A DNA stretch of 64,000 nucleotides from Verrucomicrobiota bacterium (lineage in GTDB: Bacteria > Verrucomicrobiota > Verrucomicrobiia > Opitutales > Opitutaceae), in assembly GCA_016222805.1 (NCBI GenBank), contig JACRQG010000037.1, forward strand, positions 124,001-188,000, given 5' to 3'. Positions 19,329 through 44,312 of the stretch are shown here, piece by piece (position 1 is the stretch's first letter; the number at the start of each line of letters is the position of its first letter). A program made the translations under genes and the position numbers. The notes below the pieces were generated by a model. It was not told the DNA's origin. It saw only the letters and a program-made list of their open reading frames with translations, and made no database searches.

Positions 19329-19395
19329 GAAGGGGCGAAGGATCGAATTTCCAAGAACAGCTGCGCGCAACAACCCGATGTCAGCGTGCGCCAGT

Positions 19396-19476
19396 CCTGT
19401 GGGTGGGGCGACCTCGCCCCGCCCGATCCCGCCGGCGACGCGCCCGCGCGCGCGGCGAGGTCGCCGCGTCCACAGG
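19396..19476. repeat. BIME-like inverted pair, copy 1
   Basis: CCTGTGGGTGGGGCGACCTC at the left (19396-19415) is matched by the reverse complement of the right arm ending CCACAGG (about 19452-19476). Each arm contains the smaller palindrome GGCGACCTCGCC. The element stands 68 bp upstream of the GH10-like start codon. Related pairs occur at 34001-34080, 35528-35604, 40411-40463 and 44219-44272. The remaining sequence up to 19625 holds nothing recognisable. Confidence 0.7.
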
Positions 19477-19625
19477 CTTCGCGGACTTCCGGCGTTTTGT
19501 GTAGAAATCGCAGTCGCTCGTGAGGCCACGTTGGCGCTTGCGCGCCACGGGCGGGCGGCGTTTCACCGCGGCTAGAGAGAGGGATGATGTTCACGGTGCC
19601 TGTGGGCCCGGCGGGCGAGCCGGCT

Positions 19626-29613: not shown

Positions 29614-32565
29614 GTGCTCCTGACCAACATCGCCCCGGGGCCGGCGGCCCGGGGCGCCGCCGCCGGCCCGGCGCCCGCGGCGCCGGCCGACATCGTCGCG
29701 CTGTCGCCGTTCACCGTCACCTCCGCCACCGAGAAGGGTTACCTCGCCACGCAGACCCTCAACGGCACCCGCCTCAACACCTCGCTGCGCGACGTCGGCG
29801 CGGCCATGACGATCTTCACCGAACGCCTGCTCGACGATCTCGCGGCAGCCAGCCTCAACGACCTCGTCGCCTTCGCGCCCAACACCGATCCCTACGTCGG
29901 CAGCGTCCTCGACACCTCGGGCAACGGCAACGCGTTCCTCACCACGCAGAGTCCGCAATACGTGACCCGCGGCGGCAACACCGCCCTCATCAGCCAGGAT
30001 TTCTTCAGCACGCCCGCCGTGCCGCCCGACCGCTACAACGCCGAGAACCTCACCTTCACCCGCGGACCCAACGCCATCCTCTTCGGCCTCGGCAACCCCG
30101 CCGGCGCCTTCACCTCCGCCACCAAACGCGCCCAGTTCAAGGACGCCTACCAGGCCGAACTGCGCGGAGACGACCACGGCGGACTGCGCGCCTCCGTCGA
30201 CGTGAACCGCGTTCTCGTGCCCCGCCGCCTTGCCCTGCGCTACGCCGGCCTGCGGGAGGACGCCGAGGGTTTCCGCGAGCCCAGCGGCAACGAGCAGCGC
30301 CGCCACTTCCTGACCGCCCGCTACACGCCGTTCCGCACCACGTCGCTGCGGGCGAACTACGAGTTCGGCCAGCTGAAGACCCTGGCGATCCGCCCGTGGC
30401 CTTCGTACGACGGTGTCACCCCGTGGATCGACGCCGGCCGCCCGCTGCTCGCCACCGCCGGGAGCGGCCGCACGCCACCGGCCGGCATCCAGAATGCCTA
30501 CGGCGCGGCCGCGCAGAGCCTCCTGGTCACCGACCACACGCCCGCTGGCACCGTGGTTGCGCCGATGAGCTGGCTCAACCAGGGCCGCAGTGCCAACCCC
30601 TCGTTTCCCAATTATCCCAACCTCGCGACCTTCCGGTCGCTGGTGAACCCGGACCTTTTCCCCCTGACCGCCAACGTCCCCGGTCAGGGCGCGCGGCGCG
30701 ACCTCGACTTCCACACCTTCGGCGCGAGCTGGGAACAGCAGATTGGCCGCGACTTCTTCCTCGAGGCCGCGTTCAACCGCACGCTGAGCGACACCCTCGT
30801 CAATTCGTCCTTCGGCGGGCAGAACGACCGCCTCTACGTCGACGTCAACCGCCAGCTCCCGAACGGTGCGCCCAACCCCAACGTCGGGATGCTCTACGTC
30901 GACTCGTTCGCCAATGTGCTGCCGAACAAATTCGTCGGCGCGACCGAGCGGCTGATGCTCTCCTATGAACTCGATTTCGCGAGGTACTGGCCGCGGGCGG
31001 GCCGCTGGCTCGGCCGCCATCGCGTCGCGGCGTTCGGCGAGCGCGGGATCTCCGACAACTGGGGCAGCCAGAATCCGTCCCAGAATCTCACGCCGCTGCC
31101 CACCGCCAACGCCTCGATCCTCGATCTTACCAACCGGATCCTCTTCCGCTACTACCTCGACCCGGCCCGGGGCGCGACCACCGCCGGCTTCAATGCCGCC
31201 GAACGCTATCCGGTGGTCTTTGGCGGCGACCCCCTGCCCGCGCGCAATGCCAGCGGAGTCACGCCCGGACTGGTAGCCATCTTCGGCGGCACCTCCGCAC
31301 AGACGCGCCTCTGGACCCGCGCCTTCGCGTCGCAGAGCACCTTTTGGCAGGAACGCCTCGTGATCACCTTCGGGATGCGCGAGGACACGCAGGTCACCTA
31401 CCGCGGCACCCAGACCGACTTCAACCCGTGGCGCGACAGCCGCGGCATCTACCCGAACCCCCGTTTCTTTGGCGCCAAGCGCTACTTCCCGGGCAGTCGC
31501 CTGCAGGTCGAGGGTCAGACCCACACCCGCGGCGCGGTCCTGCACGCGCTGCCGTGGCTGAGCCTGTTCGCCAACCAGTCCAACAACCTGCAGCCAAACG
31601 CCACCCAACGCGACCTCGCCGGACGGCTCGTGCCCAACCAGGAGGGCGACGGCGAGGACTACGGCCTGAAGTTCAACCTGCTGCAGGGGCGCGTCGTCGC
31701 CGACGTGCTCTACTACAAGAACTACGGCCGCAACCGGCCGGACCAGACCGTAGCCAACGGCCTGCACGGCAACTTCCAGAACGACATCAACGCCATCTGG
31801 ACCACGCTTGCCGCCCGGGAGAACAAACCGGAGTACCTTGCGAATCCGTACGCCTACACCGGCTCGGTGTGGTTCGACACCAACACCGGCTACTCCGACG
31901 GCTACGAGGCCAGCGTGACAGCCAATCTCACGCCCGCGTGGCGGCTCACCGTCAACGGCAGCAAGCGCGGCCCCGGCGAGACCATCGAGCGCGGCCCCCT
32001 GACGCGCGGCTATCTCGCGCAGTACCTGCCGCAGTGGAAGGCCAATGCGGCCTGGATGAGCACGCCGCTCGTCGAGGGTTCGTCCGGCGGCGGCACGATC
32101 GCCAGTGCGGTGGGCCGCCTCGAAAACACCCTGGCGAGCTTCAACGCCCTCGCCGCGCTGCCCACCGACAGCCTCTTCGCGCCGGAGTGGGCGGCCAACC
32201 TGATCACCAGCTACGACTTCGCCACCACCTCACGCCTTCGCGGGGTCTCGCTCGGTGCGAGCGCCAACGTGCGCGGGCCGACCGTCATCGGTTTCGCCGA
32301 GACCGCCGCCGGCGTGGCCATCGCCGACCGTCCCTACTACGCCCGGAAGTTCGCAACCACCGGCGCCTGGATCTCCTACCGGCGCAAACTGCCCGGAAAC
32401 GTCAACTGGCGCCTGCAGCTCAACGTCCGCAACGCCCTCGACGAAAACAAGCTCTTCCCCCATCGCGCCGTCGATCGCCGCGACGGCACGGGCCGCCCCG
32501 CCATCGCCATCTACCGCCTCAACGAGCCCCGCACGTTCCTCCTCACGTCGAGCTTCAGCCTCTGA
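29614..32565 (+). CDS. TonB-dependent receptor (second type)
   Basis: The coding frame is clear to a C-terminal aromatic-rich strand (FLLTSSFSL). The first GTG, 29614, gives 983 residues with a short hydrophobic start, then APADIVALSPFTVTSATEKG, the usual leader of verrucomicrobial receptors. The plug at about 45-160 has SLNDLVAFAPNTDPYVG and FTRGPNAILFGLGNPAGAF, and a barrel follows. It has no CarboxypepD-reg domain, unlike the other receptor. The start is uncertain: the residues just before GTG (SPRWPLLAT) would complete a better signal peptide, but only CTG codons precede it back to an in-frame TGA at 29548. It heads the run of SGNH, sulfatase, GH99-like and GH127 genes and probably imports fragments of their substrate. 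Confidence 0.9.
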   Translation: MLLTNIAPGPAARGAAAGPAPAAPADIVALSPFTVTSATEKGYLATQTLNGTRLNTSLRDVGAAMTIFTERLLDDLAAASLNDLVAFAPNTDPYVGSVLDTSGNGNAFLTTQSPQYVTRGGNTALISQDFFSTPAVPPDRYNAENLTFTRGPNAILFGLGNPAGAFTSATKRAQFKDAYQAELRGDDHGGLRASVDVNRVLVPRRLALRYAGLREDAEGFREPSGNEQRRHFLTARYTPFRTTSLRANYEFGQLKTLAIRPWPSYDGVTPWIDAGRPLLATAGSGRTPPAGIQNAYGAAAQSLLVTDHTPAGTVVAPMSWLNQGRSANPSFPNYPNLATFRSLVNPDLFPLTANVPGQGARRDLDFHTFGASWEQQIGRDFFLEAAFNRTLSDTLVNSSFGGQNDRLYVDVNRQLPNGAPNPNVGMLYVDSFANVLPNKFVGATERLMLSYELDFARYWPRAGRWLGRHRVAAFGERGISDNWGSQNPSQNLTPLPTANASILDLTNRILFRYYLDPARGATTAGFNAAERYPVVFGGDPLPARNASGVTPGLVAIFGGTSAQTRLWTRAFASQSTFWQERLVITFGMREDTQVTYRGTQTDFNPWRDSRGIYPNPRFFGAKRYFPGSRLQVEGQTHTRGAVLHALPWLSLFANQSNNLQPNATQRDLAGRLVPNQEGDGEDYGLKFNLLQGRVVADVLYYKNYGRNRPDQTVANGLHGNFQNDINAIWTTLAARENKPEYLANPYAYTGSVWFDTNTGYSDGYEASVTANLTPAWRLTVNGSKRGPGETIERGPLTRGYLAQYLPQWKANAAWMSTPLVEGSSGGGTIASAVGRLENTLASFNALAALPTDSLFAPEWAANLITSYDFATTSRLRGVSLGASANVRGPTVIGFAETAAGVAIADRPYYARKFATTGAWISYRRKLPGNVNWRLQLNVRNALDENKLFPHRAVDRRDGTGRPAIAIYRLNEPRTFLLTSSFSL

Positions 32566-32572
32566 GTCCCGC

Positions 32573-33970
32573 ATGGAATTTCCCACCCGTCGTCGCTTCC
32601 TCGCCGCCGCCACGGCCGCCAGCTTTGCGCTGCCGCCGCTGCTCTTCGGCGCGGCCACGAAGAAGGCCGCGCCGCCGAAACCCGCCCCACCCGCGGTGCC
32701 CGGAATCGCTCCATTCGCGATCGAGGACGACACCCTCGTCGTTCCCGCCGGCCTCTACCGCATCGGCGGAGGACGCGAGGTGCGCGTCACCGCCGCCGCG
32801 CGGCTGGCAATCGCCCCGGTCGACATCGTCACCGTGCGCGACGAGGAGTTGCAGCTCTCGCCGGAAAAGCCCGGCGGTTTCTTCACCGGCACGAAACTGG
32901 CCGGCACCCGGGCCGCCAACATCGGCGCCTTCCGCTCCTTGATCGAGGAGAGTGTCGCGCTCCGCACCCCCGCGGGCCGCCCGCTCCGCCCGGGCGAAGA
33001 CTACCTCGTGTCCGCCCCCTTCGCCCTGCTTGGGCTCGGCTCGCGCCCGGGCGTCACCGCGGCGGACAAGGTCCTGGCCACCTATGCGCATTACCGCCAG
33101 CGCATCGACCTCGTCGCCGTCGACGCGCACGGCGCGCCGTTCCTCGTGCCCGGGGTTCCCCACGTCGCAACCCCCGCGATTCCCTCCGCTCCGGCCGGTG
33201 CCACCCCGATCGCCACCGTCTACCGGCCGTTCGGCGCACGCACGCTCGAGGCGGTGCACGTGTTTCCGATCGTCGCGACCGCCCGCGACGCCACGACCAC
33301 CACCACCCGCGGCCGGGTGCCCAGGACCCTCGCCAAGCTGGAGCGCGGGGAACCGGTCACCGTGGCCTGCTGGGGCGACTCGATCACCGTCGGCGCCGAC
33401 GTCGAGCCCTCCGAGGCGTGGGCCAACCGGCTGCGCACCGAACTCTCCGCCCGTTTCCCGCGCGCCCGCCTCACCCATCGCAACCACAGCATCGGCGGCA
33501 CCAAGACCGCGCAGTGGCTGCACAACGGCAACTTCCCCGGCCTGCCGAAGCAGAACCCGGAAAAGTGCCGGTTCGACCTCGTGCTCGCCGAAAAGCCCGA
33601 CCTCGTGGTGATGGAGTTTCTCAACGACATCACGTTCGGGGAGGACGTCCTCGAGACGACCTACGCGCGCATCCACGAGGCCTTCGCCGCCCGCGGCATC
33701 GAGTGGATCCTTGTCACGCCCAGCCAGAAGGTGCCCTCGGATTTCAACCTGGCCGAGATGAAGGACGGGCAGCCGCGGTTGCTCGATGCCTTCCTGCGAC
33801 GTTTCGCCGACCGGCACGGCTACGCCCTCGCCGACACCGCCGCACGCTGGAAGCACCTGTACCGCGAGGGCATCCCGTACTTCGCGCTCTTTGCCAACGC
33901 CTACAACCACCCCAACGCCTTCGGCCACGGGCTGTTCATCGAGGAGATCCTCCGATGCCTGGAAGGCTGA
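32573..33970 (+). CDS. Exported SGNH/GDSL-type hydrolase (carbohydrate esterase-like)
   Basis: The protein has 465 residues. TRRRFLAAATAASFALP is a Tat signal. An N-terminal beta-rich domain (about 45-255) precedes the SGNH domain (about 262-465). Block I is VACWGDSITVGADV with the nucleophile Ser, the block-II-like Gly is in HSIGGTKTAQW, MEFLNDITFG supplies Asn, and NHPNAFGHGLF supplies the catalytic His with its partner. Members remove acetyl or other ester groups from polysaccharides. The gene begins 7 bp after the receptor stop, and its end overlaps the sulfatase start by 16 bp, so it is firmly within the operon. It probably de-esterifies the same sulfated glycan. Confidence 0.85.
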   Translation: MEFPTRRRFLAAATAASFALPPLLFGAATKKAAPPKPAPPAVPGIAPFAIEDDTLVVPAGLYRIGGGREVRVTAAARLAIAPVDIVTVRDEELQLSPEKPGGFFTGTKLAGTRAANIGAFRSLIEESVALRTPAGRPLRPGEDYLVSAPFALLGLGSRPGVTAADKVLATYAHYRQRIDLVAVDAHGAPFLVPGVPHVATPAIPSAPAGATPIATVYRPFGARTLEAVHVFPIVATARDATTTTTRGRVPRTLAKLERGEPVTVACWGDSITVGADVEPSEAWANRLRTELSARFPRARLTHRNHSIGGTKTAQWLHNGNFPGLPKQNPEKCRFDLVLAEKPDLVVMEFLNDITFGEDVLETTYARIHEAFAARGIEWILVTPSQKVPSDFNLAEMKDGQPRLLDAFLRRFADRHGYALADTAARWKHLYREGIPYFALFANAYNHPNAFGHGLFIEEILRCLEG

Positions 33971-35493
33971 ACCTCTCCGTGCGCGCGATCGGACGCGGCT
34001 CGGGTGGGCGGACCTCCCCCGCCCCACGCGCTCCGAACCTCGATGCCATCCCCGCGGGGCGAGGTCGCCCCGCCTACAGGGCACTGTGCGCGGCAGGTCT
34101 GGTGCTGTTCGGGGCAGTCTCCGCCGCGGCCCGCCCGCCGAATGTCATCGTCATTGTCAGCGACGATCATGGCTGGGCCGATCTCGCCTGCCAGGGGCCG
34201 CGACGCGACGTGCGCACGCCGCACCTTGATGCGCTGGCGGCCGACGGCGTGCGCTTCGCCAAGGGGTACGTGAGCGCGCCGGTCTGCGTCCCCTCGCGCG
34301 CCGGCCTGGTCACGGGGCGTTATCAGACGCGCTTCGGCATCGAGTCCAACGACGACGGCCCGCTCCCCGCCGCCGAACGCACACTGGGGGATCGCCTCCG
34401 CGCCGCCGGTTATGCCACCGGCCTGGTCGGCAAGTGGCACCTCGCCGGCAGCCGGGAGGCGACGGCGGCCCTGAAACGCACGCCCGGCGCCGCGCGCGAC
34501 GTCATCTGGGGCGACAACGTCGGGGTGACCGACGCCAACCTCCCCGGCCGCCGCGGTTTCGACGCCTACTTCTGCGGCGCGATGCGCAACTTCGCGGCGT
34601 CGTTCGATCTCGCGGGCCGGCCGCTCGAGGGCGCACCCGTGCTGGTGCGCGAGTCGCGTTTCCGCGTCGAGGTGCAGACCGACGCGGCCCTGGCGTATCT
34701 GCGGCAGCAGGACCCGGGCACGCGGCCGTTCTTCCTCTACCTCGCCTACTTCGCCCCGCATGTGCCGCTCGAGGCGCCGGAGCCGTGGCTGGCCCGGTTT
34801 GCCGAGGTCAGCGACCCGGTGCGTCGCACCGGCCTGGCGATGATCGCCGCCGTCGATGACGGCGTGGGCCGGCTCCGCTCCCTGCTGCGCGAACGTGGCT
34901 GGGAGAAAGACACGCTGCTGTTCTTCGTCGGCGACAACGGTGCCCCCACCAAGCCCGGCATGTGGGACGGCTCGCTCAACGAGCCGCTCGTCGGCGAAAA
35001 GGGCCTGCTGCTCGACGGAGGCATCCGCGTGCCGTTCCTCGCCTGCTGGCCGGGCACCCTGCCCGCGGGGCGGGTCTACGAGCACCCGGTGAGTTCCCTC
35101 GATATCACCGCCACGGCGCTCGGTGCCGCCGGGGTCGCGCTGCGACCGGAGTGGAAACTCGACGGCGTCGATTTGACGCCGTTCCTCACCGGTCGGCGCC
35201 GGGGGGCCCCGCACGACGCGCTCTTCTGGCGCTTCCGATCGCAGGCGGCAGTGCTGGCGGATCCCTGGAAGCTGATCTTCGTGGCGCCGGATCGCTGGCA
35301 GCTGTTCGACCGCCGCGATCCCGCCGGCGAAACACGCGACGTCGCGGCGCAGCACCCGGAGGTCGTCGCCCGCCTTCGGGCGAAACTCGAGGCCTGGTGC
35401 GCGGAGCAATCCCCCGCCGGCCTGCCCCGCCGCGCCGACGCCGCCGATGCCGAATACCTCGATCGCCACGGTCCCGCGGCGGTAACACGATAG
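33955..35493 (+). CDS. Exported sulfatase with canonical formylglycine motif
   Basis: The protein has 512 residues from ATG 33955. RPPNVIVIVSDDHGWADLAC supplies the metal aspartates, and VCVPSRAGLVTGR is the sulfatase signature with Cys111 as the residue converted to formylglycine. LVGKWHLAGS, FAPHVPLEAP and FFVGDNGAPTKPGMW are further conserved blocks. Sulfatases remove sulfate esters, here probably from a polysaccharide in the periplasm. The N-terminal region is odd: residues about 16-42 are encoded by a REP/BIME-like repeat (34001-34080), and the hydrophobic signal core (LCAAGLVLFGAVSAAA) comes only afterwards. No ATG, GTG or TTG exists between the repeat and the core, so translation must start at 33955 or GTG 33979 and read through the repeat. 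Confidence 0.9.
   Translation: MPGRLNLSVRAIGRGSGGRTSPAPRAPNLDAIPAGRGRPAYRALCAAGLVLFGAVSAAARPPNVIVIVSDDHGWADLACQGPRRDVRTPHLDALAADGVRFAKGYVSAPVCVPSRAGLVTGRYQTRFGIESNDDGPLPAAERTLGDRLRAAGYATGLVGKWHLAGSREATAALKRTPGAARDVIWGDNVGVTDANLPGRRGFDAYFCGAMRNFAASFDLAGRPLEGAPVLVRESRFRVEVQTDAALAYLRQQDPGTRPFFLYLAYFAPHVPLEAPEPWLARFAEVSDPVRRTGLAMIAAVDDGVGRLRSLLRERGWEKDTLLFFVGDNGAPTKPGMWDGSLNEPLVGEKGLLLDGGIRVPFLACWPGTLPAGRVYEHPVSSLDITATALGAAGVALRPEWKLDGVDLTPFLTGRRRGAPHDALFWRFRSQAAVLADPWKLIFVAPDRWQLFDRRDPAGETRDVAAQHPEVVARLRAKLEAWCAEQSPAGLPRRADAADAEYLDRHGPAAVTR
34001..34080. repeat. BIME-like inverted pair, copy 2, inside the sulfatase 5' coding region
   Basis: The left arm (34001-34024, GGGTGGGCGGACCTCCCCCG) and right arm (34054-34080, GCGGGGCGAGGTCGCCCCGC then CTACAGG) are inverted copies of the family seen at 19396-19476. 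The left arm is the more decayed. The element is in frame and open for translation. Confidence 0.7.
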
Positions 35494-35500
35494 GTGGGAC

Positions 35501-36847
35501 ATGCTGCTCTCTCCGATTCCCGGACTTCCTGCAGGCGGGGCGACCTCGCCCCGCATTTCCGGAGCGACGTCGCGAACGGTGCGAGGCGGAGTCGTCCCGC
35601 CTGGAGTCGGGATCCTCGCCCTTCTCGCCGGCCTGTCGGCCCTCGCGGTGGGTCCGGGGTTTGCCTCGTCCCCGCCTGCCGCCGCCCCCGCCCGCGCCAC
35701 GTACGTGCCTGCCCCGCGTCCGGCGGACACCGGCCGCACGCTCGTCGGCGCGGTCATGTGCCCGCTCTGGAACGATGGCCGGCGATGGGGCGAGATCGTG
35801 CCGTTTCCCGGCCGCGAACCGCTCCTCGGCTGGTACGACGAGGGGAATCCGGAGGTCACCGACTGGGAAATCACCTGGGCGCTCGACCACGGCATCTCGT
35901 TCTTTCTCGTCTGCTGGTATCGGGCGAAAGGGAACTTCGACGAGGCGACCGTGCGCCCGACCCTCGGCCACTGGCTGCACGAGGGCCTGCCGCGCAGCCG
36001 CTACGGCGACCGGTTTCGCTTTGCGATCATGTGGGAGAACGCCAACCGCGCCCTGCCCACCCAGACCACGGAGGCCGACTTCCTCGGCAAGCTCGTGCCC
36101 TACTGGATCGATGAGTACTTTCGCCGGCCCAATTACCTCGTGATCGACGGCCGCCCGGTGTTCTCGATCTACAATCCGGAGAAGTTCGCCCGTGAACTCG
36201 GCGGCGAAGGTCCCGCCGCCGCCGCCCTCGCCGCGATGCGCGACGCCTGCGTGCGCGCCGGTTTCCGGGGCGTCCACCTGCTCGGCCAGTACTGCTGGGG
36301 CGCACCACCGCGACTCGCCGAGCAGGCCGGCGTAATCCGGCGGCTTGGTTTCGACGCGAGCTGGGCCTACCACTGGCCCACGTTCACCGGCGCCTTCGGC
36401 CGAAACCTCCGACCCACGGGCGCCGAGGCCATCGCCGCGCAGGAGGGCCTCTGGCGCACCCAGCCCGCACCGCACCTGCTCACGCTCTCGATGGGCTGGG
36501 ACGAGGAACCGTGGCGCTTCAAGTACTCGCGGATCCAATGGCAGCTCACGCCCGCCGAATACGGGGAACTGGCCCGCCGCGCCCGCGCGCTCCTCCGCCA
36601 ACGCGAGGGCAGCGACGGCCTCGCCGACCGCGTCGTCCTCCTCGACAACTGGAACGAGTTCGGCGAAGGCCACTATCTCCTGCCCACGCGCGAGCACGGC
36701 TTCGGCTACCTCGAGGCCGTGCGCCGGGTCTTCGCGCCGGACGCCCCGCCCCACCGTCCCGCCACTCCCGCCGAACTCGGCCTCGGCCCCTACGACTCGC
36801 GCTTTCGCGCCTGGCAGCGCGGGCAGAACACTTCCTCCGTTCCCTGA
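35501..36847 (+). CDS. Exported GH99-like (WbsX-type) glycoside hydrolase
   Basis: The protein has 448 residues from ATG 35501. The mature region matches the GH99-like/WbsX domain: VMCPLWNDGRRWGEIVPFPG, WEITWALDHGISFFLVCWYR, FAIMWENANRALP, YWIDEYFRRPNYLVIDGRPV, LLDNWNEFGEGHYLLP. Such TIM-barrel proteins act on or bind mannans and other glycans. A hydrophobic stretch (GVGILALLAGLSALAVGPG) gives a signal peptide, but it is preceded by about 34 residues read from a BIME-like repeat (35528-35604). GTG 35579 is an alternative start yet still lies in the repeat. The gene starts 7 bp after the sulfatase stop and overlaps the next sulfatase by one base, so it sits in the middle of the operon. Confidence 0.85.
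   Translation: MLLSPIPGLPAGGATSPRISGATSRTVRGGVVPPGVGILALLAGLSALAVGPGFASSPPAAAPARATYVPAPRPADTGRTLVGAVMCPLWNDGRRWGEIVPFPGREPLLGWYDEGNPEVTDWEITWALDHGISFFLVCWYRAKGNFDEATVRPTLGHWLHEGLPRSRYGDRFRFAIMWENANRALPTQTTEADFLGKLVPYWIDEYFRRPNYLVIDGRPVFSIYNPEKFARELGGEGPAAAALAAMRDACVRAGFRGVHLLGQYCWGAPPRLAEQAGVIRRLGFDASWAYHWPTFTGAFGRNLRPTGAEAIAAQEGLWRTQPAPHLLTLSMGWDEEPWRFKYSRIQWQLTPAEYGELARRARALLRQREGSDGLADRVVLLDNWNEFGEGHYLLPTREHGFGYLEAVRRVFAPDAPPHRPATPAELGLGPYDSRFRAWQRGQNTSSVP
35528..35604. repeat. BIME-like inverted pair, copy 3, inside the GH99-like 5' coding region
   Basis: CCTGCAGGCGGGGCGACCTC begins the left arm. The right arm (about 35577-35604), read in reverse, is CTCCAGGCGGGACGACTCCG. It is the same family as at 34001-34080, and here too it is translated in frame just ahead of a signal peptide. 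Confidence 0.7.
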
Positions 36848-38375: not shown

Positions 38376-40352
38376 ATGCCTCCCTGCCCGCCCGCCCGCC
38401 CGGTTCCCCGTGATCGTCGTCCCCGCTGGTGGCGCTGCCTGCCGCTCCTGGCCTTCGCCGCGTCCTGTGCCCAGGGCGCGGCCACCGATGTGCTGACCCC
38501 CGCCGCCCCCGGCACCGTGACCGTGGCAGGCAGGCTCGGCGACAAGCTGGAGCGCAGCCGCCACCAGCGCGTCTACGCCCAGAATCTCGAACGCATTTTG
38601 CAGCCCTATCGCGATCGCCGCGAAGAGAACGCCGGCCACTGGCGCTGCGAGTACTGGGGCAAGTGGTTTACCTCGGCCGCGCTCGCCGCCGCCTACGCTC
38701 CGACCGGCACCCCGCGCACCAAGCTCAACGACGCCGTGCGCGGTCTCCTCGCCACCCAGACCCACGACGGCTACATCGGCACCTACAAGCCCGACAAGCA
38801 CCTCGGCATCTGGGATGTCTGGGGCCGGAAGTACACGCTGCTCGGCCTGATCGCGGCGTACGATCTCACCGGGGATGCCGCCGCGCTCGCCGCCGCCCGC
38901 CGCGTCGCCGATCACCTGATGCACGAGGCGCCGCCGGGGAAATTCAACCTGGGTGAAAACGGCATCGATGTCCTCAAGGGCCTCGCGCCCAACTCCATTC
39001 TCGAACCGATGGTCCTGCTCCACGTGCGCACCGGCGACGCGCGTTACCTGGACTTCGCCCGCAGCCTCGTCGCCGACTGGGAGAAACCCAATCGCTTCCT
39101 CCCGCAGGGCCTGCAACTCATCGCCTCGGCGCAGCAGGGCGTGCCGCCCCTGCGGATCGCGTCGCCCAAGGCCTACGAGATGATGTCGTGCTTCGAGGGC
39201 CTCTGCGAACTGTACCGCGTGACCGGCGACCCGACGTATCTCGACGCCACGGTGCGCTTCGCCCACTCGATCCGGCGCACCGAGCTCATGATCCACGGCT
39301 CCGGCTCCAACCATGAGCTGTGGTGCGACGGCACGCGCACCCAGACCGAACTGCTCGAGCAGCCGGTCGAGACCTGCGTCACCGTCACCTGGATGAAGCT
39401 CTGCCACCAACTGCTCCGCCTGACGGGGGATCCGCTCTGGGCCGACGAGATGGAGGTCTCGCTCTACAACGCCCTGCTCGGCGCGATGACGCCCGACGGC
39501 GGCTGGTGGGCCTACTTTTCCCCGCTCGCCGGCCAGCGCGTGCCCAGCCACTTCCAGCACGCCGACGTGCAGATGAGCTGCTGCACCGCCAACGGGCCGC
39601 GTGGCCTCCACCTCACGCCGGCCTGGGCCGTCATGCGCCGCGGGGACGGCCTCGCCGTCAATCTCTACGCGCCCGGCCGCGCCACCCCGGCGCTCGCCGA
39701 CGGCACTGTCGTCACGCTCGAACAACGCACCGATTACCCGGCCGGCGATGCCATCACGATTGAGGTGTCCCCGGCCCGGCGCACGCGCTTCTCCCTCGCC
39801 CTGCGCATCCCGGCCTGGAGCAAACGCACTACGCTCGCGGTGAACGGACAGGCGGTGGCCGTCCGCCCCGGCACCTACGCGATCCTCGAACGCGAGTGGT
39901 CGCCCGGCGACCGCATCTCCCTGCAACTCGACCTGCGCGGTCGCGCGGTGCCGGCGCCCAGCGGTGCCCCGCAGCTGGCCGTGATGCGCGGCCCGCTCGT
40001 GCTGGCCCTGGACAACCGGCTGGCCCAGGCGCAGGACGTCGCCGTGCGCCTCGTCGCCGACGCCGAGGGCTATGTCGCGCTGCAGCCGGTCAAGGTGAAG
40101 CCGGCGGAGGTCTGGCTGGCGTTCGAGGTGCCCTTCGAGGTGCGCCCGACGCATTTCTTCAAGCACCGCACGATCACGCTGCCGATGTGCGACTTTGCCT
40201 CGGCGGGCAACGGCTGGAACAGCGCCAGTCTCTTCCGCACCTGGCTGCCGCAGCCGCTCTTCCTGCGCCAGATGTTCCCCACCGAGACCTGGCGCCTGAT
40301 GGGGCCCGAGCTCAAGGAATGCCCGCCCATCCCGGTGCTGACGCCTCCTTGA
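38376..40352 (+). CDS. Beta-L-arabinofuranosidase-like GH127 (DUF1680), exported
   Basis: The protein has 658 residues. An Arg-rich leader and WWRCLPLLAFAASCAQG form the signal peptide. The (alpha/alpha)6 barrel has HWRCEYWGKWFTSAALA, THDGYIGTYKP, WGRKYTLLGLIAAY and ETCVTVTWMKLCHQL, with Glu332 and Cys334. MSCCTANGPRGLH carries Cys402-Cys403. By analogy with the Bifidobacterium HypBA1 enzyme, Glu/Cys and Cys/Cys bind zinc and the first cysteine of the pair is the nucleophile. Beta-sandwich domains follow from about 430. GH127 enzymes remove beta-L-arabinofuranose, and related families act on other sugars. It is the last gene of the receptor-sulfatase run. Its stop codon abuts a MITE-like element. 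Confidence 0.9.
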   Translation: MPPCPPARPVPRDRRPRWWRCLPLLAFAASCAQGAATDVLTPAAPGTVTVAGRLGDKLERSRHQRVYAQNLERILQPYRDRREENAGHWRCEYWGKWFTSAALAAAYAPTGTPRTKLNDAVRGLLATQTHDGYIGTYKPDKHLGIWDVWGRKYTLLGLIAAYDLTGDAAALAAARRVADHLMHEAPPGKFNLGENGIDVLKGLAPNSILEPMVLLHVRTGDARYLDFARSLVADWEKPNRFLPQGLQLIASAQQGVPPLRIASPKAYEMMSCFEGLCELYRVTGDPTYLDATVRFAHSIRRTELMIHGSGSNHELWCDGTRTQTELLEQPVETCVTVTWMKLCHQLLRLTGDPLWADEMEVSLYNALLGAMTPDGGWWAYFSPLAGQRVPSHFQHADVQMSCCTANGPRGLHLTPAWAVMRRGDGLAVNLYAPGRATPALADGTVVTLEQRTDYPAGDAITIEVSPARRTRFSLALRIPAWSKRTTLAVNGQAVAVRPGTYAILEREWSPGDRISLQLDLRGRAVPAPSGAPQLAVMRGPLVLALDNRLAQAQDVAVRLVADAEGYVALQPVKVKPAEVWLAFEVPFEVRPTHFFKHRTITLPMCDFASAGNGWNSASLFRTWLPQPLFLRQMFPTETWRLMGPELKECPPIPVLTPP

Positions 40353-40504
40353 GCCGGATCCATTCAGTCGGGCTGGCACCCCCTGCGGGAGTCCACTGAC
40401 AAAACGGTGACCTGTGGGCGGGGCGACCACGCCCCGCTCCGCGACGAGGTCGTCGCGGCTACATGACTGCGGTTCACGACGACTCCGATTGCATCGTTCC
40501 GGCT
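40352..40504. repeat. 153-bp MITE-like element, copy A
   Basis: The left end (GCCGGATCCATTCAGTCGG) and the reversed right end (GCCGGAACGATGCAATCGG) are terminal inverted repeats. Inside is a BIME-like pair (40411-40463, CCTGTGGGCGGGGCGACC and its inverted partner). It aligns along its whole length with copy B at 44161-44312. The left edge touches the last base of the GH127 stop codon. The next 145 bp, up to the aldo/keto reductase start, hold no recognisable feature. Confidence 0.75.
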
Positions 40505-44110: not shown

Positions 44111-44160
44111 GGCGGTTTTGTGGTTCGCCCGGAGCGGCAGCGCTGGTGCGAGCCGCCTCA

Positions 44161-44312
44161 ATCCGGAACCATGCAGTCGGGCTGACGCACCTGCGGGAGT
44201 CCACTGACGAAACGGTGACCTGTGGGCGGGGCGACCGCGCCCCGCTCCGCGACGAGGTCGTCGCGGCTACATTGCTGCGGTGCACGTCAACTTCGACTGC
44301 ATCGTTCCGGAT
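44161..44312. repeat. 152-bp MITE-like element, copy B
   Basis: The terminal inverted repeats ATCCGGAACCATGCAGTC and, reversed, ATCCGGAACGATGCAGTC differ at one of 18 positions. The interior is nearly identical to copy A, including the BIME-like pair (44219-44272). Its right edge overlaps the first base of the UroD-like stop codon on the minus strand. There is no ORF inside, so it would need an enzyme supplied in trans. Confidence 0.8.

Follow-up and report, generated by a model that had tools for sequence, protein, structure and literature searches.

The 64,000-nucleotide stretch analysed here (the window; positions 124,001 to 188,000 of contig JACRQG010000037.1, assembly GCA_016222805.1, from a member of the Opitutaceae in the Verrucomicrobiota) carries repetitive extragenic palindromes (REPs) in the leaders of two adjacent genes, a sulfatase gene (33955..35493) and a gene encoding a WbsX/GH99-like protein (35501..36847). 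In these two genes, and in about 13 others of the same genome, the REP probably sits in frame between the start codon and a signal-peptide-like hydrophobic core and is translated as extra residues of the n-region. This reading rests on computed features, namely the identity of the repeats, the open frames, the lack of an ATG between repeat and core, the presence of an ATG ahead of the repeat near the preceding stop codon, and the short, REP-free leaders of relatives.

The sulfatase gene (plus strand; Pfam PF00884, 7.8e-55) encodes 512 amino acids (aa) when read from ATG 33955 through the repeat. Its upstream neighbour is an SGNH/GDSL hydrolase gene (32573..33970, plus strand; Pfam PF13472), which runs 16 nt into the sulfatase gene (stop-to-ATG distance -16), and a Shine-Dalgarno-like GAGGAG (33941..33946, plus strand) stands 8 nt ahead of the ATG. 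From ATG 33955 the frame is open through a degenerate REP arm (34001..34029, plus strand), which scores 3.9 bits at best against thresholds of 14-16, and through an intact arm (34052..34080, minus strand, 42.5 bits) read in frame as AGRGRPAYR; the two arms are 51 nt apart, just as in the WbsX gene (35528 to 35579). The signal-peptide-like core ALCAAGLVLFGAVSAAA (34081..34131, plus strand; from the translation, by a hydrophobicity heuristic) follows directly. No ATG, GTG or TTG lies between the end of the repeat at 34080 and this core, as a sequence-only reading of the window had pointed out; the next in-frame start codon is GTG 34102, within the core. The leader also contains a CTG at 34084, and nothing in the sequence analysis speaks for or against its use as a start.

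The WbsX/GH99-like protein (448 aa, plus strand) belongs to Pfam Glyco_tran_WbsX (PF14307), which corrects the family given under the earlier label "GH99-like". Its ATG 35501 is 7 nt past the sulfatase stop, and the frame is open from there through a first REP arm (35528..35556, plus strand, 35.6 bits) and a second, weaker one (35579..35607, minus strand, 16.5 bits) to the signal-peptide-like core VGILALLAGLSALAVGPG (35606..35660, plus strand; same heuristic). The second arm includes an in-frame GTG at 35579, an alternative start that would give a shorter, plausible leader. The sequence-only reading had described inverted palindromes in both leaders, in frame and free of stops, behind an ATG that was the only usable start. 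The palindromes and the open frames are borne out in both genes; the inverted pair stands for the WbsX gene, and in the sulfatase its second arm is very degenerate. The start codon claim fails, since GTG 33979 is also in frame ahead of the sulfatase repeat and GTG 35579 lies inside the second WbsX arm. The sulfatase gene is likely to be translated through its whole repeat, the WbsX gene somewhat less likely, because GTG 35579 could serve as the start of the latter. Judging from their sequences, both proteins are probably exported.

The repeats are REPs of a GTAG/GTGG-tagged family that is abundant in this genome (7.9 Mb in 51 contigs; contigs are labelled here C34 to C51, loci L with a number, and same-genus genomes G003, G017 and G025) and often forms inverted pairs of the kind called bacterial interspersed mosaic elements (BIMEs) or REP doublets forming hairpins (REPINs). 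A search of the window with the pattern GGCGGGGCGANNTCGCCCCGC (at most 3 mismatches) returned 12 strand matches against 0.53 expected, a number reached by 0 of 100 shuffles. At no more than 1 mismatch the whole genome has 188 + 193 = 381 strand matches and the reversed control 0, and each of 26 same-genus genomes has at most 2. The consensus is CCTGTGGGCGGGGCGACC, summarised as CCTGTRG-GCGGGGCGACCYCGCCCCGC, and the GTAG/GTGG tetranucleotide of the GTAG REP superfamily stands at one end of the palindrome; ahead of the GGCGGGG core, 63 of 269 strand matches have TGTG and 48 TGTA, the remainder being mostly the reverse reading of the palindrome. A search of 2.464 Mb (31% of the genome) found 246 REPs in 146 clusters, of which 75 are plus-minus pairs and 60 singles, with inverted doublets of about 80 nt.

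REPs avoid gene bodies. In a sample that is about 90% called coding, 129 of the 138 clusters in the first 2.064 Mb are outside called genes and 2 are well inside a gene; by location, 82 are between unidirectional genes, 39 between convergent and 6 between divergent ones, 9 are in called genes and 2 at segment ends. The REPs in most of the genes at issue here count as outside genes because the gene caller starts those genes behind the REP. Clusters are also clumped, 50% having a neighbour within 3 kb compared with a mean of 35% and a maximum of 47% in 300 simulations of uniform placement. One locus (L197, C49:460131-466567) has six REP clusters in 6.5 kb, three in the translated position; the genes among which they lie include sulfatases. 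In C49:462162, a gene of this locus that lies behind REPs, an out-of-frame ATG overlaps the upstream stop at -4, and the 40 codons ahead of the REP offer no in-frame start codon; REP insertion possibly broke the frame. In another locus (L235, contig C44, gene 136389-138080), one leader holds four REPs, which encode 42 in-frame residues ahead of the signal core.

The in-frame arrangement recurs across the sampled 2.46 Mb. Genes were called with our own hexamer/codon model (1,735 genes) rather than Prodigal, and signal peptides were recognised by our own Kyte-Doolittle core heuristic rather than SignalP. The sampling was non-random, comprising whole or partial contigs, with C49:440001-480000 and parts of C44 picked for their REP matches; tests conditional on a REP are little affected by this, and densities may be. 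REP clusters could be paired with gene 5' ends in 69 cases, 45 of them open in frame, the counts excluding 8 pairs in which the REP itself contains a stop and 16 in which one interrupts the stretch from REP to gene. Among the 19 genes without an ATG behind the REP, an in-frame ATG occurs within 40 codons before it in 15 (within 25 codons in 14), compared with 2 of the 26 genes that have an ATG behind the REP (Fisher 1.2e-6). Off-frame readings through the REP, used as a control, are open in 106 of 138, and an upstream ATG is present in 18 of those 106 (binomial 5e-9 against 15/19). Leaving out the cases in the window gives 13/17 versus 2/25 (Fisher 7e-6), and the arrangement is found in 13 sampled genes besides the sulfatase and WbsX genes. 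That these two neighbouring genes share it had been taken as unlikely to be chance; this argument from adjacency is weakened because REP clusters are clumped, and the genome-wide pattern is the better evidence.

A Pfam scan took in 12 of the 15 genes and identified three sulfatases, a GH106, a GH43, an AXE1-like esterase and the WbsX-like gene among them, two of the scanned genes having no match; a fourth sulfatase, C51:420972, was named by its motif alone. The REP-encoded residues are hydrophilic and mostly net positive (0 to +7), and the whole n-regions, with the core set by the hydrophobicity heuristic, span 27-78 aa with net charges of +1 to +11. Measured from the stop of the preceding same-strand gene, the upstream ATGs of all 15 genes fall at -17 to +25 nt, and five of them form the -4 overlap. 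The REPs start 16-85 nt behind that stop, and their median of 46 nt resembles the medians of intergenic REPs (59.5 nt between unidirectional and 55 nt between convergent genes). REPs inside these genes therefore keep their usual relation to the upstream gene, and it is the tight junction that puts the REP into the next one. A signal-like hydrophobic core follows within 45 aa behind the REP in 15 of 15 genes, against a background of 185/412 genes that lie behind a tight junction, judged on their first 45 aa as called (p ~6e-6).

Relatives without the repeat have short, ordinary leaders, which, together with the 13 further genes and their controls, supports the earlier proposal that repeat insertion lengthened the n-regions and supplies the orthologue comparison it had called for. 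In the same-genus genome G025, the sulfatase orthologue (66% identity) starts with MKFKSLMCSAALGLLLASVAP and the two WbsX relatives (69 and 70% identity) start with MSARRKRLGLMALFAGLG and MTTWPRLGAVALLLAVV; the tagged palindrome was looked for in these G025 loci and none was found. The next sulfatase in the window itself (36847) also has an ordinary leader, MKPLLSLTGWRCTALLPLLAVTLFAAAPA. The best named relatives of the sulfatase come mostly from metagenome-assembled genomes labelled Verrucomicrobia or Opitutae, with some Planctomycetes. In a leader scan of 80 sulfatase relatives the motif was readable in 65 and not found in 15; the nearest ATG at least 14 codons off lies 15-43 codons ahead of it in 61 of the 65, at 85 and 99 codons in two, and is missing in two. 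The window sulfatase has its ATG about 59 codons ahead of the motif, as counted on the translation. In the GH106 gene C51:313420, the end of the upstream gene and the ATG align across this genome, G003 and the REP-free G025, all three sharing GGAGAAAT-[AG]-A-[GC]-CATG, and the insert follows no more than 8 codons on. For C46:240681, MKTLPFSCGRSDFAANT[REP] compares with MKTLRSLLLPAVLLVAATAHA and MTMKTILAFAFLLSAPVGFA, the MKT start agreeing with orthologues that lack a leader REP; this comparison of orthologue leaders covered the loci other than L301 and L134.

Several observations weigh against translation through the repeats. In four of the 19 genes the 40 codons ahead of the REP hold no in-frame ATG, and one of the 15, the GH106-like frame C49:466594, has an in-frame TAG shortly after its leader; either the gene may be broken or the sequence wrong at this point, and the gene was retained in the count. 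The class without an ATG behind the REP was defined by scanning to the core, or over 45 codons in coreless genes, which favours signal-like genes. This bias touches at most one gene, C34:10473, which we take to be galE-like; its REP match, which contributes one of the 2/26, looks like a false positive. The position of an ATG near the stop is by itself not decisive for a start, because 9 of the 18 off-frame ATGs also lie at -20 to +25 nt from the upstream stop, and the stop-to-REP distances were compared through their medians alone. The two signal-core counts come from tests over different stretches. Set against REP-adjacent genes with a later ATG, which are mostly signal-like too (17/26), the 15/15 gives a modest contrast (Fisher 0.015). 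Shine-Dalgarno strength does not discriminate, being found for 22% of called ATG starts, 30% of internal ATGs and 7 of the 15 upstream ATGs; as a test of the upstream ATGs it was dropped, the measure used being uninformative genome-wide. In the part of the literature on the GTAG superfamily drawn on here, intragenic REPs at N-termini are suspected to be misannotated starts (PMC3733652).

This suspicion has its counterpart in an account in which the REPs belong to an untranslated or coupling region and the upstream ATGs are there by coincidence; ribosomes would begin past the repeats, the WbsX gene using GTG 35579 and the sulfatase gene a non-AUG codon. The codon model itself favours starts behind the repeat (34102 and 35579), the leader from GTG 35579 is plausible, and starts behind the REP have been argued for several species from shorter homologues, in the same portion of PMC3733652. 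We nevertheless consider this account quite unlikely, as genes lacking a later ATG have an in-frame upstream ATG much more often than off-frame readings do, a start at GTG 34102, within the hydrophobic core, would leave hardly any n-region, and the start of C51:313420 aligns with that of its REP-free G025 orthologue. The same excess of in-frame ATGs speaks against neutral chance, by which, most frames of a GC-rich genome being open, a few of the many REPs would come to lie in frame accidentally and signal peptides would not be especially tolerant of them. The many open off-frame readings, the clumping of REPs and the frequency of signal-like genes next to REPs in general all fit such an origin; the signal-like core in 15/15 genes, set against the background at tight junctions, does not, and we hold it unlikely.

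Alternatively, REP hairpins near the start of the message might be kept for regulating translation or mRNA stability, the added residues being a side effect. REPs have been proposed as RNA elements in the section of PMC3733652 used here, and the WbsX leader folds better than its shuffles (z -3.03). The sulfatase leader, however, folds no better than shuffles (z -0.93), the arms begin 27 nt (first WbsX arm) and 97 nt (intact sulfatase arm) after the ATG, and relatives manage without the repeat, making this explanation improbable.

Translation of the repeats as n-region residues could have come about as follows. REPs often lie some tens of nucleotides past the stop codon of the upstream gene, and in tightly packed operons this spot coincides with the first codons of the next gene. 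There the REP would be translated, presumably from the upstream ATG, as hydrophilic, mostly net-positive residues of the n-region, and on export signal peptidase would cut these residues off with the rest of the leader. The insertion would thus survive where the next gene opens with a disposable signal-peptide n-region. We infer this course of initiation, export and cleavage, and the selective reason it offers, from the sequences.

Another genome of the genus, G003, has its own REP family (235 strand matches at no more than 3 mismatches, control 1) and also carries a REP at five of the six REP junctions of this genome that lie within or between aligned blocks (C51:313420, C51:312170, C46:239147, C51:420972 and C49:464606; the sixth, without one, is C46:240681). 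At four of the five, the G003 REPs come from other families, whereas the one at C51:420972 (L296) is similar to the family of this genome. An in-frame position after an upstream ATG, with no later ATG ahead of the core, is seen in four of the five (two with a later TTG); in the fifth (L132) a later ATG is present. This sample is small and ascertained, its four G003 loci having come from protein searches with REP-bearing genes. The G017 orthologue of C51:313420 may carry a third REP family. Thirty G003 loci fetched with G003's own REP (L303-L332, several being two arms of one site) gave three gene-proximal cases listed, none of the translated type. At three of the G003 loci aligned to this genome's sample (L322, L330 and L331), this genome has no REP at the aligned spot, a comparison made on loci other than the weaker L305/L306, L324/L325 and L332. 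It is conceivable, and we propose it tentatively, that n-regions of signal peptides at close operon junctions are recurrent, selectively permissive landing sites for REPs. Such sites might have been hit repeatedly, or ancestral insertions might have been rewritten by each lineage's REP family with the frame kept.

Three other REP pairs of the window lie outside called genes. A pair at 19396..19476 (no strand assigned; REP scan) serves for comparison, and two A/B-type pairs (40411..40465 and 44219..44273, no strand assigned; REP scan and gene calls) are between called genes. Both A/B pairs are embedded in a longer repeat of 160 bp (40343-40502 and 44152-44310, 88% identical to each other), and flanks like theirs are found again elsewhere in the genome. 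Used as a DNA query, 19390-19480 has matches in 9 of 132 genomes of the order, with 1-3 weak matches apiece in those other than this one (best E 5e-5). A degenerate form of the REP pattern, which was poorly specified, gave no more matches than the control in eight other genomes. Upstream of the genes discussed, a 983-aa protein (29614-32565) has no Pfam match at E 0.001; by its look we take it to resemble a TonB receptor.

Short palindromes translated in frame inside proteins are known from the Rickettsia palindromic elements, which the present repeats resemble in this respect and which belong to another phylum. N-termini decorated with RPE-1 are stated to be expressed in vivo, and no link to signal peptides is made in the portion of this source used (PMC3733652). 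According to the same portion, intragenic GTAG REPs have been published, most numerously in Opitutus terrae, the N-terminal ones being suspected to lie outside the true gene (PMC3733652). The repeats described here share with that superfamily the GTAG/GTGG tag, a GC-rich stem of about 9 bp, inverted dimers, high copy number and a location mostly between unidirectional or convergent genes with an intragenic minority. N-terminal insertions are there treated as largely misannotated starts, as far as the consulted sections go (PMC3733652); in the present genome, controls and orthologues lacking the repeat connect them with the n-regions of signal peptides at close gene junctions. The inverted doublets are also like REPINs and BIMEs associated with REP-associated tyrosine transposases (RAYTs), whose definition includes no coding role in the passages drawn on (PMC2817692). 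One RAYT protein is present in this genome: C38:323067 (L239) scores 85.9 bits with NF047646 (cut-off 80), and a second Y1_Tnp protein scores 54.6, under the cut-off. Unlike in a RAYT-mobilised REPIN, however, no REP of the family above 12 bits lies within about 1.5 kb on each side of the candidates in L238 or L239. Scanned against Pfam from their ATG, the two window proteins have no match at E 0.001 to an ESPR family, which we take to be the extended signal peptide region of autotransporters. A further precedent comes from enterobacteria, where a small repeat supplies codons to one predicted signal peptide of an exported protein; that element is different and longer, and the account, in the extract used, has no genome-wide control (PMC2759123). 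In a 2025 survey of REPs, a word search finds neither "signal peptide" nor "N-termin" (PMC12306157). Our literature search for REPs together with signal peptides, N-terminal extensions, translational coupling or exported proteins, which did not cover subscription papers, did not find this niche.

In conclusion, the repeat class is known, and the site where it survives, probably the signal-peptide n-region at a tight junction, is the new, under-appreciated part. If the reading is correct, N-terminal REPs should not be dismissed outright as misannotated starts, as they would mark real, lengthened signal peptides in this genome, with consequences for where the starts of sulfatases, glycosidases and other exported enzymes are annotated. 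It would also give a rule for the entry of a selfish palindrome into coding sequence, just past the upstream stop and within a leader that is discarded, and a testable example of signal-peptide sequence supplied by repetitive DNA.

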